Shown here one piece after another: positions 22,840 to 30,020 of a stretch of DNA of 34,104 nucleotides (position 1 is its first letter; every line of letters starts with the position of its first letter). Source of the stretch: an uncultured Senegalimassilia sp. (GTDB lineage: Bacteria > Actinomycetota > Coriobacteriia > Coriobacteriales > Eggerthellaceae); NCBI GenBank assembly GCA_934630815.1, contig CAKTWI010000025.1:1-34104 (forward strand). Direction: 5' to 3'. The position numbers were made by a program, and so were the translations under genes. The notes beneath the pieces are model-generated. The model was not told where the DNA came from and did no database searches. It saw only the letters and a list, made by a program, of their open reading frames with translations.

Positions 22840-22868
22840 AGCTGCCGGTGCACTTGCTTCCGGCAGCT
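22840..22868 (-). terminator. Hairpin at the cadA stop codon
   Basis: AGCTGCCGG (22840-22848) pairs with CCGGCAGCT (22860-22868) around 11 bases. The arm overlaps the stop codon of the leftward cadA gene. No clear T-run follows, so intrinsic termination is uncertain. Confidence 0.4.
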
Positions 22869-24786
22869 ACTTGCGAAGCCCCTTCACGTTCATGCAGCGC
22901 ATGGCATTGAGGATGGCAAGGATCGCCACGCCCACGTCGGCGAACACCGCCAGCCACATGTTCGCGATACCCACTGCGGCCAGCACGAGCACGGCAAGCT
23001 TCACGCCCAGCGCGAACACGATGTTCTGCCAGACGATGCACATGGTGCGCCGTGCCAGGTTGATAGCGCGTGAAATGTTGGAAGGCTTGTCGTCCATGAG
23101 CACCACATCGGCGGCCTCGATAGCGGCGTCCGAGCCCATGGCGCCCATGGCTATACCCACATCGGCGCGGGTGAGTACCGGCGCATCGTTGATGCCGTCG
23201 CCCACGAATGCCAGGTTCGCACCGTCGGCTTCCTCGGACAGCAACCGCTCCACTTGGGCGACCTTGTCGGCGGGCAGTAGCTGGGCGTGGAACTCGTCGA
23301 TGCCGAGCTGCTCGGACACCGCGCGGGCCACTTCGGCGCGGTCGCCGGTAAGCATGACCGTTTTGCGCACGCCTGCAGCATGAAGCCGTTTGATGGCCTC
23401 TGCGGCATCTTCTTTCACCACGTCGGCGATGACGATGTGGCCGACGTAATTTCCGTCGATAGAAACGTGCAGGATCGTGCCCGTAAGCTTGCAATCATGG
23501 TAATCCGTGCCGTTTGCGTTCATGAGTTTGTCGTTGCCGACCAGCACCACGTGCTCGTCGATCACGGCTGCCACGCCGTGGCCTGCTTCCTCGCGCACGT
23601 CATGGATGCGTTCCTGATCGATCTTGCCGGAATAGGCCTCCTTGACCGAAAGCGCGATGGGGTGGTCCGAATAGGATTCCGCATGCGCCGCATAGCTCAG
23701 CAGGTGTTCGGGGTCCACATCTTTTTCGGCATGAACCGCCACCACGTTGAAGGTGCCGTTGGTCAGCGTGCCGGTTTTGTCGAACACCACGGTGTCCACC
23801 TTGGCAAGCGCCTCAAGATAGTTGCTGCCTTTGACGAGCACACCAAGCTTGCTGGCACCGCCGATGCCGCCGAAGAACGACAGCGGCACGCTGATGACCA
23901 GGGCGCACGGGCAGCTGACCACCAGGAACGTGAGGCCGCGTAAAATCCAGTCGCTCCAGGCGCCCATGCCCAAAAGCGGCGGCACGATGGCAAGCAGCAA
24001 GGCAAGCCCTGTGACGGTGGGGGTGTAGTAACGGGCGAAGCGGGTAATGAAGTTCTCTGTGCGGGCCTTCTTTTCGGCGGCGTTTTCCACCAGCTCCAGG
24101 ATGCGGCTGACCGTGGACTCGCCGAAGGGCTTTTCCGTGCGGACGCGCAGCACGCCGGTCATGTTCACGCAGCCGCTGATGACCTCCATGCCGGCTTCCA
24201 CATGGCGGGGAACGGATTCGCCGGTGAGCGCCGCGGTATCAAGCTGGCTTGCGCCTTCGATGATGGTGCCGTCGATGGGCACGCGCTCGCCGGGCTTCAC
24301 CACGATGACGTCGCCGATAGCCACTTCAGCGGGGTCTACCTGCGTAAGCTGGCCGTCGCGTTCGATGTTGGCGTAATCGGGGGCGATATCCATCATGGAT
24401 GCGATGGATTTGCGCGATTTGCCTACGGCGTAGCTTTGGAACAGCTCGCCGACCTGGTAGAACAGCATCACGGCGCAACCTTCCGCCATCGAAGGCTCCG
24501 CGTCGGGGAACGCGATCATGGCGAAAGCGCCTATGGTGGCGATGGCCATGAGCAGGTTCTCGTCGAACACCTGGCCGTTCTTGATGTTGCGGGCTGCTCG
24601 TAGCAGCACATCGTGGCCGGCGATGAGGTATGGCACCAGGTATAACGCGAAAAGCAGGCAGACCGCAGCGGCCTCGCTGCCAAGCATATCGGACAGCGGC
24701 AGCAGGTGCTCGGCGGCGAAGATGACGGCGAACAGCGCCAAAGCCACCAAGATGCGGTTGCGCCACTTTCGTTGCTTTTTATTCAT
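22867..24786 (-). CDS. cadA: Heavy-metal P1B-2-type ATPase (Zn2+/Cd2+/Pb2+ efflux)
   Basis: The 639-residue membrane ATPase pumps divalent soft metals out of the cell. It has the TGES actuator motif, the membrane metal-binding CPC (about 292-294), DKTGT with phosphorylated Asp336, the SDHPIA histidine motif and GDGINDAP. An Asp in the last helix (VFADVGVAIL, about residue 617) together with CPC marks the Zn/Cd/Pb subgroup. The N-terminal metal-binding HMA domain usual in CadA is missing; it is encoded as a separate small gene 38 bases upstream. AAGGAA precedes the ATG by eight bases. It is the last gene of the arsR-HMA-cadA operon, controlled by the SmtB-like repressor. Confidence 0.95.
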   Translation of the reverse strand: MNKKQRKWRNRILVALALFAVIFAAEHLLPLSDMLGSEAAAVCLLFALYLVPYLIAGHDVLLRAARNIKNGQVFDENLLMAIATIGAFAMIAFPDAEPSMAEGCAVMLFYQVGELFQSYAVGKSRKSIASMMDIAPDYANIERDGQLTQVDPAEVAIGDVIVVKPGERVPIDGTIIEGASQLDTAALTGESVPRHVEAGMEVISGCVNMTGVLRVRTEKPFGESTVSRILELVENAAEKKARTENFITRFARYYTPTVTGLALLLAIVPPLLGMGAWSDWILRGLTFLVVSCPCALVISVPLSFFGGIGGASKLGVLVKGSNYLEALAKVDTVVFDKTGTLTNGTFNVVAVHAEKDVDPEHLLSYAAHAESYSDHPIALSVKEAYSGKIDQERIHDVREEAGHGVAAVIDEHVVLVGNDKLMNANGTDYHDCKLTGTILHVSIDGNYVGHIVIADVVKEDAAEAIKRLHAAGVRKTVMLTGDRAEVARAVSEQLGIDEFHAQLLPADKVAQVERLLSEEADGANLAFVGDGINDAPVLTRADVGIAMGAMGSDAAIEAADVVLMDDKPSNISRAINLARRTMCIVWQNIVFALGVKLAVLVLAAVGIANMWLAVFADVGVAILAILNAMRCMNVKGLRK

Positions 24787-24824: not shown

Positions 24825-25043
24825 TTATCGAACGATGTCGCAGTCGGGCTCGAACTTGTGGGCAACCTTTTGCGCCTCGTCGACGACCTGCTCGAAACGG
24901 GCGTCGTCAGCGTCGATCATGAGCTTCTGGGTCATGAAGGTGACCTTGGCGTCGTTCACGCCTTCGATCTGCTTGATTCCCGCTTCGATCTTCGCTCCGC
25001 AGTTGGCGCAGTCGAGCTCGTCGAGTTTGAACGTCTTACGCAT
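24825..25043 (-). CDS. Free-standing heavy-metal-associated (HMA) domain protein
   Basis: A 72-residue protein with the ferredoxin-like HMA fold. The metal-binding motif LDCANCGAKIE contains C12 and C15. The LDCANC form is typical of the N-terminal domain of Zn/Cd ATPases rather than of copper chaperones, which have MTCxxC. It therefore looks like the detached N-terminal domain of the CadA pump encoded directly downstream, acting as a zinc/cadmium metallochaperone or sensor domain. AAAGGAA lies six bases before the ATG. It lies 53 bases after arsR and 38 before cadA in the same operon. Confidence 0.9.
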   Translation of the reverse strand: MRKTFKLDELDCANCGAKIEAGIKQIEGVNDAKVTFMTQKLMIDADDARFEQVVDEAQKVAHKFEPDCDIVR

Positions 25044-25096: not shown

Positions 25097-25573
25097 CTAT
25101 TCGCAGATGTGGGTCATGCCTTGTGCCAGCATGGTGTACACGTGGTCGTCGGATAAGGAATAGATGACGGATTTGCCGTCGCGCTGGAACTTCACCAGAT
25201 GGGCTTGCTTGAGCTGGCGTAGCTGATGGGATACCGCCGATTGCGTGGCGCCGATGGTTTCAGCCAGCTCGCCCACGGGCACGGGACGCGCCATCAGCGC
25301 GAACAGGATTTTGATGCGGGTGGTATCGGCGAACACCTTGAACAGGTCGGCCAAATCATAGAGCAGCTCCTCGTCGGGCATGGTGTCGAAGCGTTGCTGG
25401 GTTTCGCTGCGATTACATCCGCAAGGGCAATCGTCGGTTTGCGGGTTTTGGGCCGGTAGGGCGTCAGCGGGGGTGCACTGATGTTCGGTTTCCATGACCG
25501 ATGGCTGGTCGGTTGCTGCTGCGTCGCTCTGCATCGAGTGCAACGTGGACGCGGCCATTTCCTCGTTTGTCAT
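25097..25573 (-). CDS. ArsR/SmtB-family zinc-responsive repressor
   Basis: A 158-residue winged-helix repressor. The recognition region is ATQSAVSHQLRQLKQAHLV. The C-terminal helix carries D142, H144, H155 and E158 with exactly the SmtB alpha-5 zinc-site spacing (D-x-H-x10-H-x2-E), which predicts zinc sensing. The alpha-3 cysteines of CadC are absent. An unusual N-terminal extension of about 60 residues contains C49, C51 and C53 (CPCGC), possibly a second metal site as in ZiaR. GAAAGGA precedes the ATG. An SmtB-type operator overlaps its promoter. It heads the leftward operon with the HMA protein and CadA, and should derepress when zinc or cadmium binds. Confidence 0.93.
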   Translation of the reverse strand: MTNEEMAASTLHSMQSDAAATDQPSVMETEHQCTPADALPAQNPQTDDCPCGCNRSETQQRFDTMPDEELLYDLADLFKVFADTTRIKILFALMARPVPVGELAETIGATQSAVSHQLRQLKQAHLVKFQRDGKSVIYSLSDDHVYTMLAQGMTHICE

Positions 25574-25604
25574 GGTTGCAATCCTTTCAGCAAACTACTA
25601 AACA

Positions 25605-25650
25605 TATGAGCAACTGTTCATAAGTATAGTCTGCAGCGCATGCTTGTCAA
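25605..25650 (-). promoter_or_regulatory. arsR-cadA promoter with SmtB-type operator
   Basis: On the minus strand, consensus TTGACA (25645-25650) and TATACT (25623-25628) are separated by 16 bases. Directly downstream, 25605-25622 forms an 8-2-8 imperfect palindrome, TATGAGCA-ac-TGTTCATA on the plus strand, with one mismatch between arms. It would cover the transcription start. This is the classical ArsR/SmtB operator form. Confidence 0.88.
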
Positions 25651-25722
25651 CTGGTTTTGCGATTTCGCGAAACCGACCTGCGTTCGCGTTGCGTATTCAG
25701 TTTCATTGCGTAAACCTTTTGC

Positions 25723-25783
25723 TTGACTATACCCCTCGGGGGCATATACTCAGCATGATATACATGCCCTATGGGGGTATATG
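25723..25783 (+). promoter_or_regulatory. csoR-copA promoter with two CsoR operators
   Basis: TTGACT (25723-25728) and TATACT (25745-25750) are 16 bases apart. Between them lies TATACCCCTCGGGGGCATA (25728-25746), which has the G-tract palindrome of CsoR sites. A second copy, TGCCCTATGGGGGTA (25765-25779), lies just downstream of the expected start. Binding at either would block transcription until Cu(I) releases CsoR. Confidence 0.88.
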
Positions 25784-25831
25784 CGAATCACTGCATGCCC
25801 CCTTAGTGCGCTCCGATTGGAAGGATGCTCC

Positions 25832-26164
25832 ATGAGCGAAGATTCGCCCGCTAGCCAGGGTACTCAAAAGGCTTGCTGCTGCCATCACAAGGCCACGCCG
25901 CGTAGTCAGCAGATGCAAGATGACCTGCAAAAGCGGCTGAACCGCGTGATAGGCCAGCTCAATGGCGTGAAAACGATGATTGACGACAACCGCTATTGTG
26001 GCGATGTGCTCGTGCAGCTTTCCGCTGCCGAAAGCGCCGTGCATAGCATCTCCGCCATCTTGTTGCAAAACCACCTGGAAACCTGCGTGGTCGAGCAGAT
26101 CGAGCAAGGCAACACGCAGATCATCGATGAAGCCATGCAGCTCATCAAGAAATTCGCGCGGTAA
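25832..26164 (+). CDS. csoR: CsoR-family copper-sensing repressor
   Basis: A 110-residue all-helical repressor. C56, H81 and C85 have exactly the 25- and 4-residue spacing of the Cu(I) site in M. tuberculosis CsoR (Cys36, His61, Cys65), so copper sensing is predicted. An N-terminal extension of about 28 residues contains CCCHH (15-19), an extra potential metal site not typical of the family. The ATG at 25832 is preferred over the ATG at 25781 because GGAAGGA lies just before it and the earlier codon lies inside the operator region. It is followed after 20 bases by copA, and two CsoR boxes flank its promoter -10, so it autoregulates. Confidence 0.94.
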   Translation: MSEDSPASQGTQKACCCHHKATPRSQQMQDDLQKRLNRVIGQLNGVKTMIDDNRYCGDVLVQLSAAESAVHSISAILLQNHLETCVVEQIEQGNTQIIDEAMQLIKKFAR

Positions 26165-26184
26165 GCGCTGAAAGAAGGATAGGA

Positions 26185-28800
26185 ATGAAACGTACATTCG
26201 ACGTGACGGGCATGACGTGCGCCGCGTGCTCGGCGCGTGTCGAGAAAACCGCTTCGAACGTGCCGGGCGTCGCCGCGGTATCGGTCAACCTGCTGAAGAA
26301 CAGCATGGAAGCGGATTTCGATGGTGAAGTCACCACTCTCGCCGCAATCTCGGCAGCGGTCGAGAAAGCGGGCTATGGGGCATATCCGCGGCCTGAGGCG
26401 GGGTCCGCGGCAAACAACGTGCAGCAGCCTGTGCGCCCGGTGAACGATTCCGCCGCCGAGGCAAAACGAGTGCGCATGCGCCTCATCGTAAGCTTCTGCT
26501 TCACCATCCCATTGTTCTATCTGTCGATGGGGCATATGTTCGGCTGGCCCTTGCCCGGGGTGTTCCTGGGCCACGAAAACATGCTCACGTTCGCGTTCAC
26601 CCAGTTCCTTCTGCTGCTGCCTGTCATCTTCGTAAACTTCAAGTTCTTCCGCGTGGGCTTTAAAGCGCTTGCTCATGGCGCGCCGAACATGGATTCGCTC
26701 ATCGCGCTCGGTTCCGCCGCATCTACGATATATGGCATCGCCGCCATCTACCGCATCGGCTGGGGTATGGGCCATGGGGATATCGATTTCGCGCACGCGG
26801 CGGCTATGGACCTGTACTTCGAATCCGCAGCCATGATCTTGACGCTCATCACGCTCGGCAAGTACTTCGAGGCGCGGGCGAAGGGCAAGACTACCGACGC
26901 CATCACCAAGCTCATGGACCTGACCCCGAAGGAAGCTGCGCGCCGCACACCGGGTGGCGGCGTTGAACAGGTGCCGGTCGAGCAGGTCCGCGTTGGCGAC
27001 ATGCTCGTGGTCAAGGCCGGTCAGAGCGTGCCCGTCGACGGTGTGGTCATCGAAGGCGACGGTGTGGTGGACGAGTCGGTCATCACCGGCGAAAGCGTGC
27101 CGGTTGGCAAGCATGCTGGCGACGCCGTCACGGGTGCCACGTTGAACAAGTCCGGGTGGTTCGTCATGCGGGCGGATCGCGTCGGCGGCGACACCACGCT
27201 TGCGGGCATCATCCGCCTTGTCGACGAAGCGACTTCCACCAAGGCTCCTATCGAGAAAATCGCTGACAAGATCGCAGGCGTGTTCGTCCCCGTCGTCATC
27301 GTCATAGCGGTTGCGACGTTCCTCGTGTGGATGGTGCTCTCCGCTGATGTGTCCACGGCGCTCACGCATGCCATCTCCGTGCTCGTAATCAGCTGCCCCT
27401 GCGCGCTCGGCCTTGCCACGCCAACTGCCATTATGGTGGGAACGGGCCGCGGAGCTTCCAGCGGCATCTTGGTGAAGTCTGCCGAGGCGCTTGAGGTCGC
27501 CCATGATGTCAAAACGGTCGTGTTCGACAAGACGGGAACCATCACAACGGGTAAACCCGTGGTCACCGACGTCGTGCGTGCCAGTGGTGTGGACGAACGG
27601 AGCTTTGCAAGCCTCGCGCTTTCCATCGAGCAGCGAAGCGAGCATCCGCTCGCCCTGGCCGTTGCGGCTTGGGCCGAGGCCGCCGGTGCGCAGGTTCAAC
27701 CGGTTGATGCGTTCGAGCAGGTTGCCGGCGGTGGGGTGCGCGCAAACGTCGGCGGGGCGTGCGCGCTGGCGGGCAATGCCAGGTTGATGGAGCAAGCGAG
27801 CGTGGACGCTTCCGAGTTCGAGCCGCGTGCCCGCGAGCTTGCCGACGAAGGCAAAACGCCCTTGTTCTTCGCCTGTGGTGGCAAGGTATGCGGTCTTGTC
27901 GCCGTAGCCGACACCGTCAAGCCCTCAAGCGCCGCCGCGCTCGAGGAGTTGCGTGCTATGGGCTTGCGCACCGTCATGCTCACGGGCGACAACGAACGCA
28001 CGGCGCAGGCGATCCAGCGCCTGGTCGGCGCTGATGAGGTGATAGCCGGCGTGTTCCCCCAGGATAAGGAGCGCGAGATCCGCCGCCTCTCCGAGCAAGG
28101 GCGCGTGGCCATGGTCGGCGATGGCATCAACGACGCCCCTGCGCTTGCCCGCGCCGACGTGGGCATCGCCATCGGAGCTGGTACCGACATCGCCATCGAG
28201 AGCGCCGATGTCGTGCTTATGCGCTCCGATGTGCTGGACGTGCCTGCTGCCATACAGCTATCACGTTCAACGCTGCGCAACATCAAGCAGAACCTGTTCT
28301 GGGCGTTGATTTACAATGCGGTGTGCATCCCGGTGGCCGCCGGCGTGTTCTCGTTCGCGGGCTTCACGCTCAACCCCATGATCGCCGCTGCGGCTATGAG
28401 CTGCTCAAGCGTCTGCGTCGTTTCCAATGCGCTGCGACTGCGCACGTGGAAGCCGCGCTTCGTCTCGACTGGGGCGCAGCAACTCGCCGGCAGGCAAGGC
28501 GAACCCAACGAAGAAGCTACGGATGCAACCGCATCCGAGCAGGATATCCAGGCAATCGATGCGGGTGCGCCCGCGGATAAGGAGATCATCATGGAAAAGA
28601 AGCTCACCGTCGAGGGTATGATGTGCCCGAAGTGCGTCGCTCATGTGAAGAAGGCGCTCGAGGACCTGGAGGGCGTGTCTGAGGCCGTTGTCGACCTTGA
28701 TGCCGGCACCGCGGTTGCAAAGCTTGCCGATGCGGTGGACGATACCGTGCTCGTGAACGCCGTCGTCGAAGCCGGCTACGAAGTGAAGGGCATCGAGTAG
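26185..28800 (+). CDS. copA: Copper-exporting P1B-1 ATPase with N- and C-terminal HMA domains
   Basis: The 871-residue Cu(I) efflux pump is larger than the usual 720-830. It has an N-terminal HMA domain (GMTCAAC, C12/C15), eight membrane helices, TGES, CPC at 404-406, DKTGT with Asp448, HPLALAV and GDGINDAP. The last helices carry YN and MSCSSVCVVSN, the copper-subgroup signature. A linker of about 55 residues after the last helix leads to a second HMA domain (residues 803-871, GMMCPKC), a position unusual for this family. That domain is preceded in frame by AAGGAG, six bases and an ATG, so it may also be made as a separate protein. The gene is co-transcribed with csoR and begins behind AAGGATAGG. 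Confidence 0.95.
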   Translation: MKRTFDVTGMTCAACSARVEKTASNVPGVAAVSVNLLKNSMEADFDGEVTTLAAISAAVEKAGYGAYPRPEAGSAANNVQQPVRPVNDSAAEAKRVRMRLIVSFCFTIPLFYLSMGHMFGWPLPGVFLGHENMLTFAFTQFLLLLPVIFVNFKFFRVGFKALAHGAPNMDSLIALGSAASTIYGIAAIYRIGWGMGHGDIDFAHAAAMDLYFESAAMILTLITLGKYFEARAKGKTTDAITKLMDLTPKEAARRTPGGGVEQVPVEQVRVGDMLVVKAGQSVPVDGVVIEGDGVVDESVITGESVPVGKHAGDAVTGATLNKSGWFVMRADRVGGDTTLAGIIRLVDEATSTKAPIEKIADKIAGVFVPVVIVIAVATFLVWMVLSADVSTALTHAISVLVISCPCALGLATPTAIMVGTGRGASSGILVKSAEALEVAHDVKTVVFDKTGTITTGKPVVTDVVRASGVDERSFASLALSIEQRSEHPLALAVAAWAEAAGAQVQPVDAFEQVAGGGVRANVGGACALAGNARLMEQASVDASEFEPRARELADEGKTPLFFACGGKVCGLVAVADTVKPSSAAALEELRAMGLRTVMLTGDNERTAQAIQRLVGADEVIAGVFPQDKEREIRRLSEQGRVAMVGDGINDAPALARADVGIAIGAGTDIAIESADVVLMRSDVLDVPAAIQLSRSTLRNIKQNLFWALIYNAVCIPVAAGVFSFAGFTLNPMIAAAAMSCSSVCVVSNALRLRTWKPRFVSTGAQQLAGRQGEPNEEATDATASEQDIQAIDAGAPADKEIIMEKKLTVEGMMCPKCVAHVKKALEDLEGVSEAVVDLDAGTAVAKLADAVDDTVLVNAVVEAGYEVKGIE
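28591..28800 (+). CDS. Possible internally initiated CopZ-like copper chaperone within copA
   Basis: Within copA and in the same frame, AAGGAG (28579-28584) stands six bases before an ATG at 28591. Translation from there gives a 69-residue protein, the normal size of CopZ, with the copper-binding motif GMMCPKC (C12/C15) and a complete HMA fold ending at the copA stop. Both the size and the well-placed ribosome binding site suggest a free chaperone made in addition to the full-length pump. The site could be a relic of an ancestral separate copZ gene that became fused by loss of the copA stop. Only protein-level data can show whether it is used. Confidence 0.5.
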   Translation: MEKKLTVEGMMCPKCVAHVKKALEDLEGVSEAVVDLDAGTAVAKLADAVDDTVLVNAVVEAGYEVKGIE

Positions 28801-28837
28801 CTCGGCCTTCACGCTTTTCGTGAATCTCGGCGTCGTT

Positions 28838-28867
28838 ATCGCATGGGACCTCAGGGCCCGGTGCGAT
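28838..28867. terminator. Hairpin between convergent copA and the aminotransferase-fold gene
   Basis: ATCGCA (28838-28843) pairs with TGCGAT (28862-28867), with further GGG/CCC pairing inside. A smaller hairpin, TTCACG-cttt(t)-CGTGAA (28808-28824), precedes it. Position between convergent genes suggests a shared terminator, but no T-run is present. Confidence 0.35.
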
Positions 28868-28892
28868 GGCGGCGCCGTTTTCGTTGGCCGGA

Positions 28893-30020
28893 TCAGCTTC
28901 CGGCGACGATCTGCCGCAAAACGGCGATAAACCGCTCGTTGTCCGACCTTGTGCGCACGCTCACGCAAAAATGGCTGCCGGGCGAGACCCCGGGCGTGCG
29001 ATCGAGCGTGCGAACCGGGAACCCTCGCTTCTGTAGCTTGCGTACAAGGTCAGGCGCATCTGCGGCTCCCAAGTGCATGGAGCGTCCCGGGGCGAACGAG
29101 CACATCACGTAATTCGCCTCAGCAGGGTAGATGCTGATTCCGGGGACCAGGCTGAGCATGCACTGCATCCAGGGGATCTCCGTTTCAAGCACTTCGCGCG
29201 CCCGTTCCAGGTGAGGATCGGGCGTGGCCAGCTTCAGCAGGCGCGCGCTGAGGGCGGCGGAGGCCGGGCGTTTGGCTATCTGGGAGATGTGGCTGGCGAC
29301 GGCGGGGTGCGCCAATGCACACGACAAGGGCATGCCGGGCAGCGAGAACGTGTCGGTGAGCGACCGGATGACGATGAGGTTCGAGTGCTCGGTAAGCATA
29401 TTCGCTGTGGATTCGCCGCCGAGCGTCAGGTCGATCCCTCGCTCGTCCACGATCACCCAAGCGCAGGCTTGCAGGTAATCGAGCAGCGTCTGCCGCGCTA
29501 GCAGCCGGCTGGTGGGGAAGGCGGGGTTGGCGAGCATGGCCGCATCGAAGGATAACCCCATGCGGCGAACGGCCTGCGGGTCGGGAACCACGAATCCATC
29601 GGGGCCGGGAACCTCTACGATGCGATGGCCGGCGGTTCCCAGGCATCGCTCATAGGCTGCGCGCGAGGGTACGGGCACCGCCACGGATCGTGACTCGAAC
29701 GAGTTAGCCACGGCAGCCAGCACATCGGTCGCCGATGCGCCGACGGCAACGCATTCGGGGTGTACGTCGTAGCGATGCGCCAACAGCCTGGGAATCTGGG
29801 CTTGCGCCGTGCGTTCCTCTTCAGGCGTGATGGGGTTTCGCGTCAGCATGTTCAACGCCGGGCTGAAGGCATCGGGCATGCCGAGCGGGTTGAGCGTCTG
29901 CGAGAAGTCGAGCCAGTCGATGATAGAGATCTCGGAATCGGGCAACATGTCGGGAGCCGCCTGCGCGGGAGTGATGGCACCCCATCCGGTGGTGTGAAGG
30001 CGTCCGTTCAATCCATCCAC
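28893..30020 (-). CDS. CobD/HisC-like fold-type I aminotransferase homologue lacking the PLP lysine
   Basis: The 375-residue protein resembles L-threonine-O-3-phosphate decarboxylase (CobD) and histidinol-phosphate aminotransferase. It has DFSQTLNPLG near residues 38-47, NPAFPTS at 165-171 in place of NPxNPTG, VDERGIDLT at 191-199, and a C-terminal VSVRTRSDNERF. The cofactor-binding lysine belongs in the SLTK motif, but here the sequence is SLTDTFSLPG with Asp223 (codon GAC) and no lysine nearby. It therefore cannot form the usual Schiff base. It may be a pseudoenzyme with a binding or regulatory role, or a decaying gene, though the frame is intact. A GTG start at 30020 is supported by AAGGAGGG six bases upstream. 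It is divergent from dinB; no cobalamin genes are adjacent. Confidence 0.8.
   Translation of the reverse strand: MDGLNGRLHTTGWGAITPAQAAPDMLPDSEISIIDWLDFSQTLNPLGMPDAFSPALNMLTRNPITPEEERTAQAQIPRLLAHRYDVHPECVAVGASATDVLAAVANSFESRSVAVPVPSRAAYERCLGTAGHRIVEVPGPDGFVVPDPQAVRRMGLSFDAAMLANPAFPTSRLLARQTLLDYLQACAWVIVDERGIDLTLGGESTANMLTEHSNLIVIRSLTDTFSLPGMPLSCALAHPAVASHISQIAKRPASAALSARLLKLATPDPHLERAREVLETEIPWMQCMLSLVPGISIYPAEANYVMCSFAPGRSMHLGAADAPDLVRKLQKRGFPVRTLDRTPGVSPGSHFCVSVRTRSDNERFIAVLRQIVAGS

Follow-up and report, generated by a model that had tools for sequence, protein, structure and literature searches.

In Escherichia coli, copA yields both a copper pump and a free CopZ-type chaperone by a programmed ribosomal frameshift (PMC7558416, PMC10187127 and PMC12589874, in the portions of these papers available to us). 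Here, we describe a copA gene at positions 26185..28800 (+) of a 34,104 nucleotide stretch of DNA from an uncultured Senegalimassilia sp. (contig CAKTWI010000025.1), referred to below as the window. A single reading frame of this gene very probably encodes the pump together with a free chaperone of the CopZ type, which would be made by internal initiation. Meydan et al. and Drees et al., both in 2017, reportedly described the E. coli copA/CopZ frameshift, the product of which is the N-terminal HMA domain of CopA. The two cases are alike in that one copper-pump gene would provide the pump as well as a free CopZ-type chaperone (the free form being predicted for the window), but the E. coli frameshift yields the N-terminal HMA domain, whereas an internal start here would release the C-terminal one. 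An E. coli-type frameshift was considered for the window copA and rejected, as no slippery heptamer of the form X_XXY_YYZ, the only form looked for, was found at codons 45-130.

Usually, copA and copZ form an operon of two distinct genes (PMC10187127, in the available portion). Separate copZ genes, whose starts are often no more than a few dozen bases away from the end of copA, encode the same chaperone family and have Shine-Dalgarno (SD) sequences of similar strength, but in the window copZ is fused to copA in frame, so that the domain exists tethered and would also exist free. Internal in-frame translation of cas8 or cas10 gives rise to Cas11 (PMC11899642, in the available portion). As far as that portion goes, the resemblance is that a small C-terminal product comes from in-frame initiation within a large gene, the initiation being predicted in our case; the proteins and their function are unrelated to copA and CopZ. 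CopA of Archaeoglobus fulgidus reportedly has a C-terminal metal-binding domain. Among the matches listed for each literature search, made in a collection with few subscription journals, none named internal initiation in copA, and such a paper may exist.

The window copA encodes an 871 amino acid protein with Pfam matches to HMA (two stretches), E1-E2_ATPase and Hydrolase, and with CPCALGLATP in the translation. The E1-E2 ATPase and HAD hydrolase domains, the CPC in the membrane domain and an N-terminal HMA domain with GMxCxxC (GMTCAAC; 26194..26376 (+), PF00403, residues 4-64) place it among the P1B-1-type copper-exporting ATPases, with HMA domains at both termini. The product is predicted to transport copper, and the adjoining CsoR-family gene fits this. 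Between the NALRL motif and the putative internal start lies a linker (28441..28590 (+)). The first-pass annotation had pointed to an AAGGAG, six bases and an in-frame ATG ahead of the C-terminal HMA domain, and these are present exactly, with the SD at 28579..28584 (+), the spacer ATCATC at 28585..28590 (+) and the ATG at 28591..28593 (+). The nested copZ, a predicted free copper chaperone corresponding to the C-terminal HMA domain, occupies 28591..28800 (+) and runs to the stop at 28800. Its product would have 69 residues including GMMCPKC, which agrees with the earlier suggestion that it is the size of a stand-alone CopZ. On its own it scores 54.3 bits for Pfam HMA (cut-off 24.8) and matches the solved CopZ chains 1k0v, 2qif, 1cpz and 6ff2; a single HMA domain of about 70 amino acids with GMxCxxC is what defines the CopZ/Atx1 type. 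Over residues 790-871, CopA shares 99 % identity with a Senegalimassilia anaerobia protein (P0017, NCBI name), and the window thus probably comes from this species or a near relative.

Relatives were gathered in a first scan of 80 loci (the best 80 of more), in which 64 genes, plus the window gene, have a C-terminal HMA domain by pattern, and in later surveys, each centred on the genome behind one locus and with inferred class names for the genomes. Using E ≤ 1e-120 in the first survey (Coriobacteriia) and 1e-150 in the others, a match was present in 252 of 296 Coriobacteriia, 212 of 245 Clostridia, 63 of 121 Bifidobacteriaceae, 120 of 198 Bacilli and 111 of 120 Negativicutes genomes. The loci read were high-scoring ones and not a random sample, namely 90 from Coriobacteriia, 30 from each other group and a later 20 from Bifidobacteriaceae. 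As the locus sets overlap, near-duplicates were removed using shared 6-mers, leaving a non-redundant set of 140 copA genes that encode a C-terminal HMA domain. The expectation that a terminal extra HMA domain is uncommon is not borne out in this high-scoring, non-random set, where 75 of the 90 Coriobacteriia loci have one.

A nested start was scored when a start codon lay at codons -11 to -6 from GMxC and the SD had a free energy (ΔG) of ≤ -5. Both were found in 129 of the 140 genes, and the start codon alone in 133. Among fused genes, the combination occurs in 57/64 in the first scan, 75/75 in Coriobacteriia, 22/24 in Clostridia, 3/4 in Bifidobacteriaceae, 2/2 in Bacilli and 23/28 in Negativicutes. 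As a control, second N-terminal HMA domains of two-HMA pumps, which also lie inside coding sequence, never showed it (0/25). Of the 65 fused genes of the first scan, counting the window gene, 63 have a start codon close to the HMA domain, and ΔG reaches ≤ -8 for 49 of these 63, compared with 28 of 1126 other internal ATGs in the same genes. The SD-to-start spacing is 5-8 nucleotides in 105 of the 129 genes. Mean SD strength is -8.7 for nested starts, which were chosen as ≤ -5, and -8.4 (n=119) and -8.7 (n=38) for the own starts of copA and for separate copZ, respectively, which were not so chosen. Of the 11 genes that fail, five (L078, L080, L245, L257 and L323) carry their SD and ATG at a more distant upstream position and one (L041) is cut by a contig end, while L003, L053 and L062 have no internal start, also on a wider look; the remaining two are considered below. 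The L080 gene (Erysipelotrichaceae) encodes a CopA with two tandem C-terminal HMA domains, and GGAGG and an ATG stand before the last of them.

The site separates the final membrane segment from a soluble domain, as would be expected if an SD-like sequence caused a translation pause that aids membrane-domain insertion or folding before the last domain is made, with no initiation. However, a pause does not need a start codon at a fixed distance, and one is kept even where the ATG has been replaced by GTG (L063) or TTG (L067), each with a good SD. The absence of the start and SD combination from second N-terminal HMA domains also speaks against a pause, as does the unusual lack of structure at the start region, low structure being a usual feature of initiation sites. 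In 128 of 129 genes, other windows of the same gene are more structured than this region, which on average also has less structure than its synonymous versions (mean z +0.79). We therefore regard a pause as exceedingly unlikely.

Codon choice was examined by synonymous resampling of the codons upstream of the start; the z values treat genes as independent, and the genes are related. For 133 genes, the observed mean was -8.48 and the expected mean -6.51 (z = -9.9), and none of 2000 resampled sets was as strong, whereas 220 control windows in the same genes with similar amino-acid potential gave z = +0.5. Gly after Lys, Glu or Gln is written GGA in 47 of 52 cases (10.2 would be expected given the codon usage of each gene), and Lys before Glu is written AAG in 59 of 68 (40.7 expected). 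Two main codon frames account for most readings of the SD core, which appears as K-E in 69 genes and as K-G, E-G or G-G in 51, with eight in the third frame and one left unassigned, and the frame has changed at least 35 times on a FastTree tree of 207 sequences. The motif seems to have shaped even the amino acids (K-E versus K-G/E-G/G-G), which makes the synonymous null conservative in this respect. The linker is otherwise poorly conserved among relatives, the SD-bearing codons being the exception (per-position entropy, 129 genes), and its length ranges from 15 to 134 amino acids (124 genes).

The frequency of K, E and G at positions -5 to -3 relative to the start could mean that the pump needs a K-E/K-G-x-x-M linker peptide and that the DNA motif merely follows from it. 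Yet different peptides (KE versus KG/EG/GG) yield one DNA motif in different frames, and synonymous codons are chosen for that motif, which leaves such a protein-level constraint with next to no likelihood. In the relatives, an in-frame start and SD inside a longer gene are conserved beyond what the codons require, as expected of internal in-frame initiation, and these comparisons make selection for an initiation site, SD plus start, at the nucleotide level well shown. Conservation of this kind, which the first-pass annotation had proposed as a check and whose absence it had named as a refutation, is seen in the loci read from Coriobacteriia, Clostridia and Negativicutes and in the few fused genes of Bifidobacteriaceae and Bacilli.

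Comparison of copA and copZ as separate or fused genes, a second check proposed there, also came out in favour of the proposal. No separate copZ was found within 700 bases 3' of the 198 copA genes scored as fused (188 of which have 700 bases of sequence), compared with 53 of the 93 scored as unfused. In the first scan, a copZ open reading frame (ORF) lies just 3' of 12 of 16 unfused copA genes, or 13 of 16 with a wider motif. The HMA pattern missed L328 (GIMC, start at -23) and L134 (EMMC, no ATG), and both were scored as unfused in the separate-copZ counts. L134 is really fused, with EMMC in its C-terminal HMA domain, and a stand-alone copZ begins 14 bases after its stop. A stand-alone copZ-like ORF also belongs to the cluster of L003, approximately 2 kb upstream of this fused gene, which lacks the internal Met. 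In Bifidobacterium phasiani (G014), only two HMA domains were found, both in CopA.

In unfused relatives, the gap from the copA stop to the copZ start ranges from -4 to 212 nucleotides (38 genes), with 15 of the 38 in the same frame, and the tree requires at least 18 changes between the fused and unfused states. A swap between nested and separate copZ is shown by these sequence comparisons. The close spacing, the similar SD sequences and the apparent ease of fusion or fission are also what would be seen if loss of the copA stop had fused the gene to a downstream copZ and left the old ribosome-binding site as an unused fossil. A fossil would decay, yet the SD is retained in every one of the fused Coriobacteriia genes despite their varying linkers, the codon bias is absent from control windows, and the motif persists through repeated changes of codon frame. 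A relic is thus very unlikely. Proteolysis of the linker might instead free the C-terminal HMA domain, and the long, variable linkers could indeed be cut, but this would leave the SD, the start codon and the codon bias unexplained, and we give it hardly any credence.

Several observations weigh against nested initiation, or limit its reach. For the window gene alone, synonymous resampling of the codons before the ATG matched the anti-SD as strongly in 51 % of 400 trials; significance from this gene by itself was rejected, and the claim rests on the relatives. Among the 93 copA genes scored as unfused, 40 had no adjoining separate copZ that could be found, though 17 of these are the YHS-tailed pumps described below. 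The ATG is kept but the SD is weak in L049 and L316. Of the genes with no internal start, L062 comes from a genome that showed only CadA-type and membrane-anchored extra HMA domains, and L053 from one with a stand-alone GMKCPRC protein elsewhere. Eggerthella sinensis (L220) has both a nested start and another soluble stand-alone CopZ-like gene. Likewise, another soluble stand-alone HMA protein with GMxCxxC is present in four (G214, G221, G167 and G018) of 32 Coriobacteriia genomes with a nested start, searched with PF00403 at E ≤ 1e-6; the typing covers hits read as sequence, and the remaining extra HMA domains among these are of CadA or related type (DCANC, ETLACPTC or similar) or membrane-anchored. 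Nested copZ is therefore not always the only source of chaperone, and strict complementarity, in which a nested start implies no other CopZ anywhere, was rejected. Several of the genomes read also encode small proteins (L213, L217, L218 and L351-L353) that combine a C-terminal HMA domain with a stretch rich in Cys and Gly and, at the N terminus, an apparent membrane helix.

Taken together, the presence of start and SD in 129 of 140 genes against 0 of 25 controls, the codon bias, the unstructured site and the alternation of nested with separate copZ make it most likely that copA produces a pump and a free CopZ. This supports the first-pass proposal of a pump plus an internally initiated CopZ-like protein, as far as comparison of genomes can. 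Ribosomes starting at 26185 would make the 871-residue copper pump with its tethered C-terminal HMA domain, and those binding the SD at 28579-28584 would initiate at the internal ATG (28591), giving the free 69-residue Atx1/CopZ-type chaperone, both probably from one csoR-copA mRNA. The free chaperone would bind and buffer cytosolic Cu(I) and deliver it to the pump, possibly also to CsoR, and the independent start would supply extra chaperone per pump. Use of the start by ribosomes, and a working role for the product as a free chaperone, are predictions from sequence. If they hold, coupling of pump and chaperone in one gene has evolved by different mechanisms, frameshifting in E. coli and internal initiation here, and copA offers a simple, testable system for setting the ratio of tethered to free metal-binding domain. 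Nested in-frame starts are normally not annotated, and such genomes can therefore appear to be without a copper chaperone that they make. With a likelihood a little below even, we suggest that several bacterial classes routinely store a copper chaperone in the pump gene and release it from its own ribosome start, convergently with the E. coli frameshift, and that this may extend to other C-terminal metal-binding domains, such as YHS in Bifidobacteriaceae.

In Bifidobacteriaceae (L264-L280 and L361-L380), 36 of the 50 loci read encode CopA-like pumps with a C-terminal YHS-like tail; the one tail tested (L270) scored 59 bits for Pfam YHS (cut-off 30.3). [KEQR]G with a Met within five residues precedes the tail in 29 of 30 non-redundant linkers, mostly written as AAAGGA or GAAGGA and then ATG, and the Gly is GGA in 27 of 29 (5.1 expected). 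A general test of the best SD over the whole linker did not reach significance (z = -1.0; 173 of 1000 sets gave a value as low). These linkers possibly hold a second kind of nested start, which, given that result and the relatedness of the species, is treated as a lead only.

The gene directly 5' of copA (25781..26164 (+)) encodes a CsoR-family repressor (Pfam PF02583, 92.4 bits); these coordinates are for the longest ORF with an ATG, and the true start is not fixed. A consensus scan of 25560-28900 gave one promoter-like sequence on the + strand, 5' of csoR-copA at 25723..25750 (+), which is weak evidence, with two sites on both strands against 1.1 expected by chance. The same scan, equally weak as evidence, found no + strand site inside copA, and an internal promoter giving a separate copZ transcript is not favoured. 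On the opposite strand, a 72 amino acid stand-alone HMA-like ORF of DCANC type (24825-25043 (-)) precedes a 639 amino acid P-type ATPase (22867-24786 (-)), Zn/Cd-type judging by its appearance and with no family search run, which begins without an HMA domain. In this pair, the metal-binding domain is detached from its pump, the reverse of the situation in copA.
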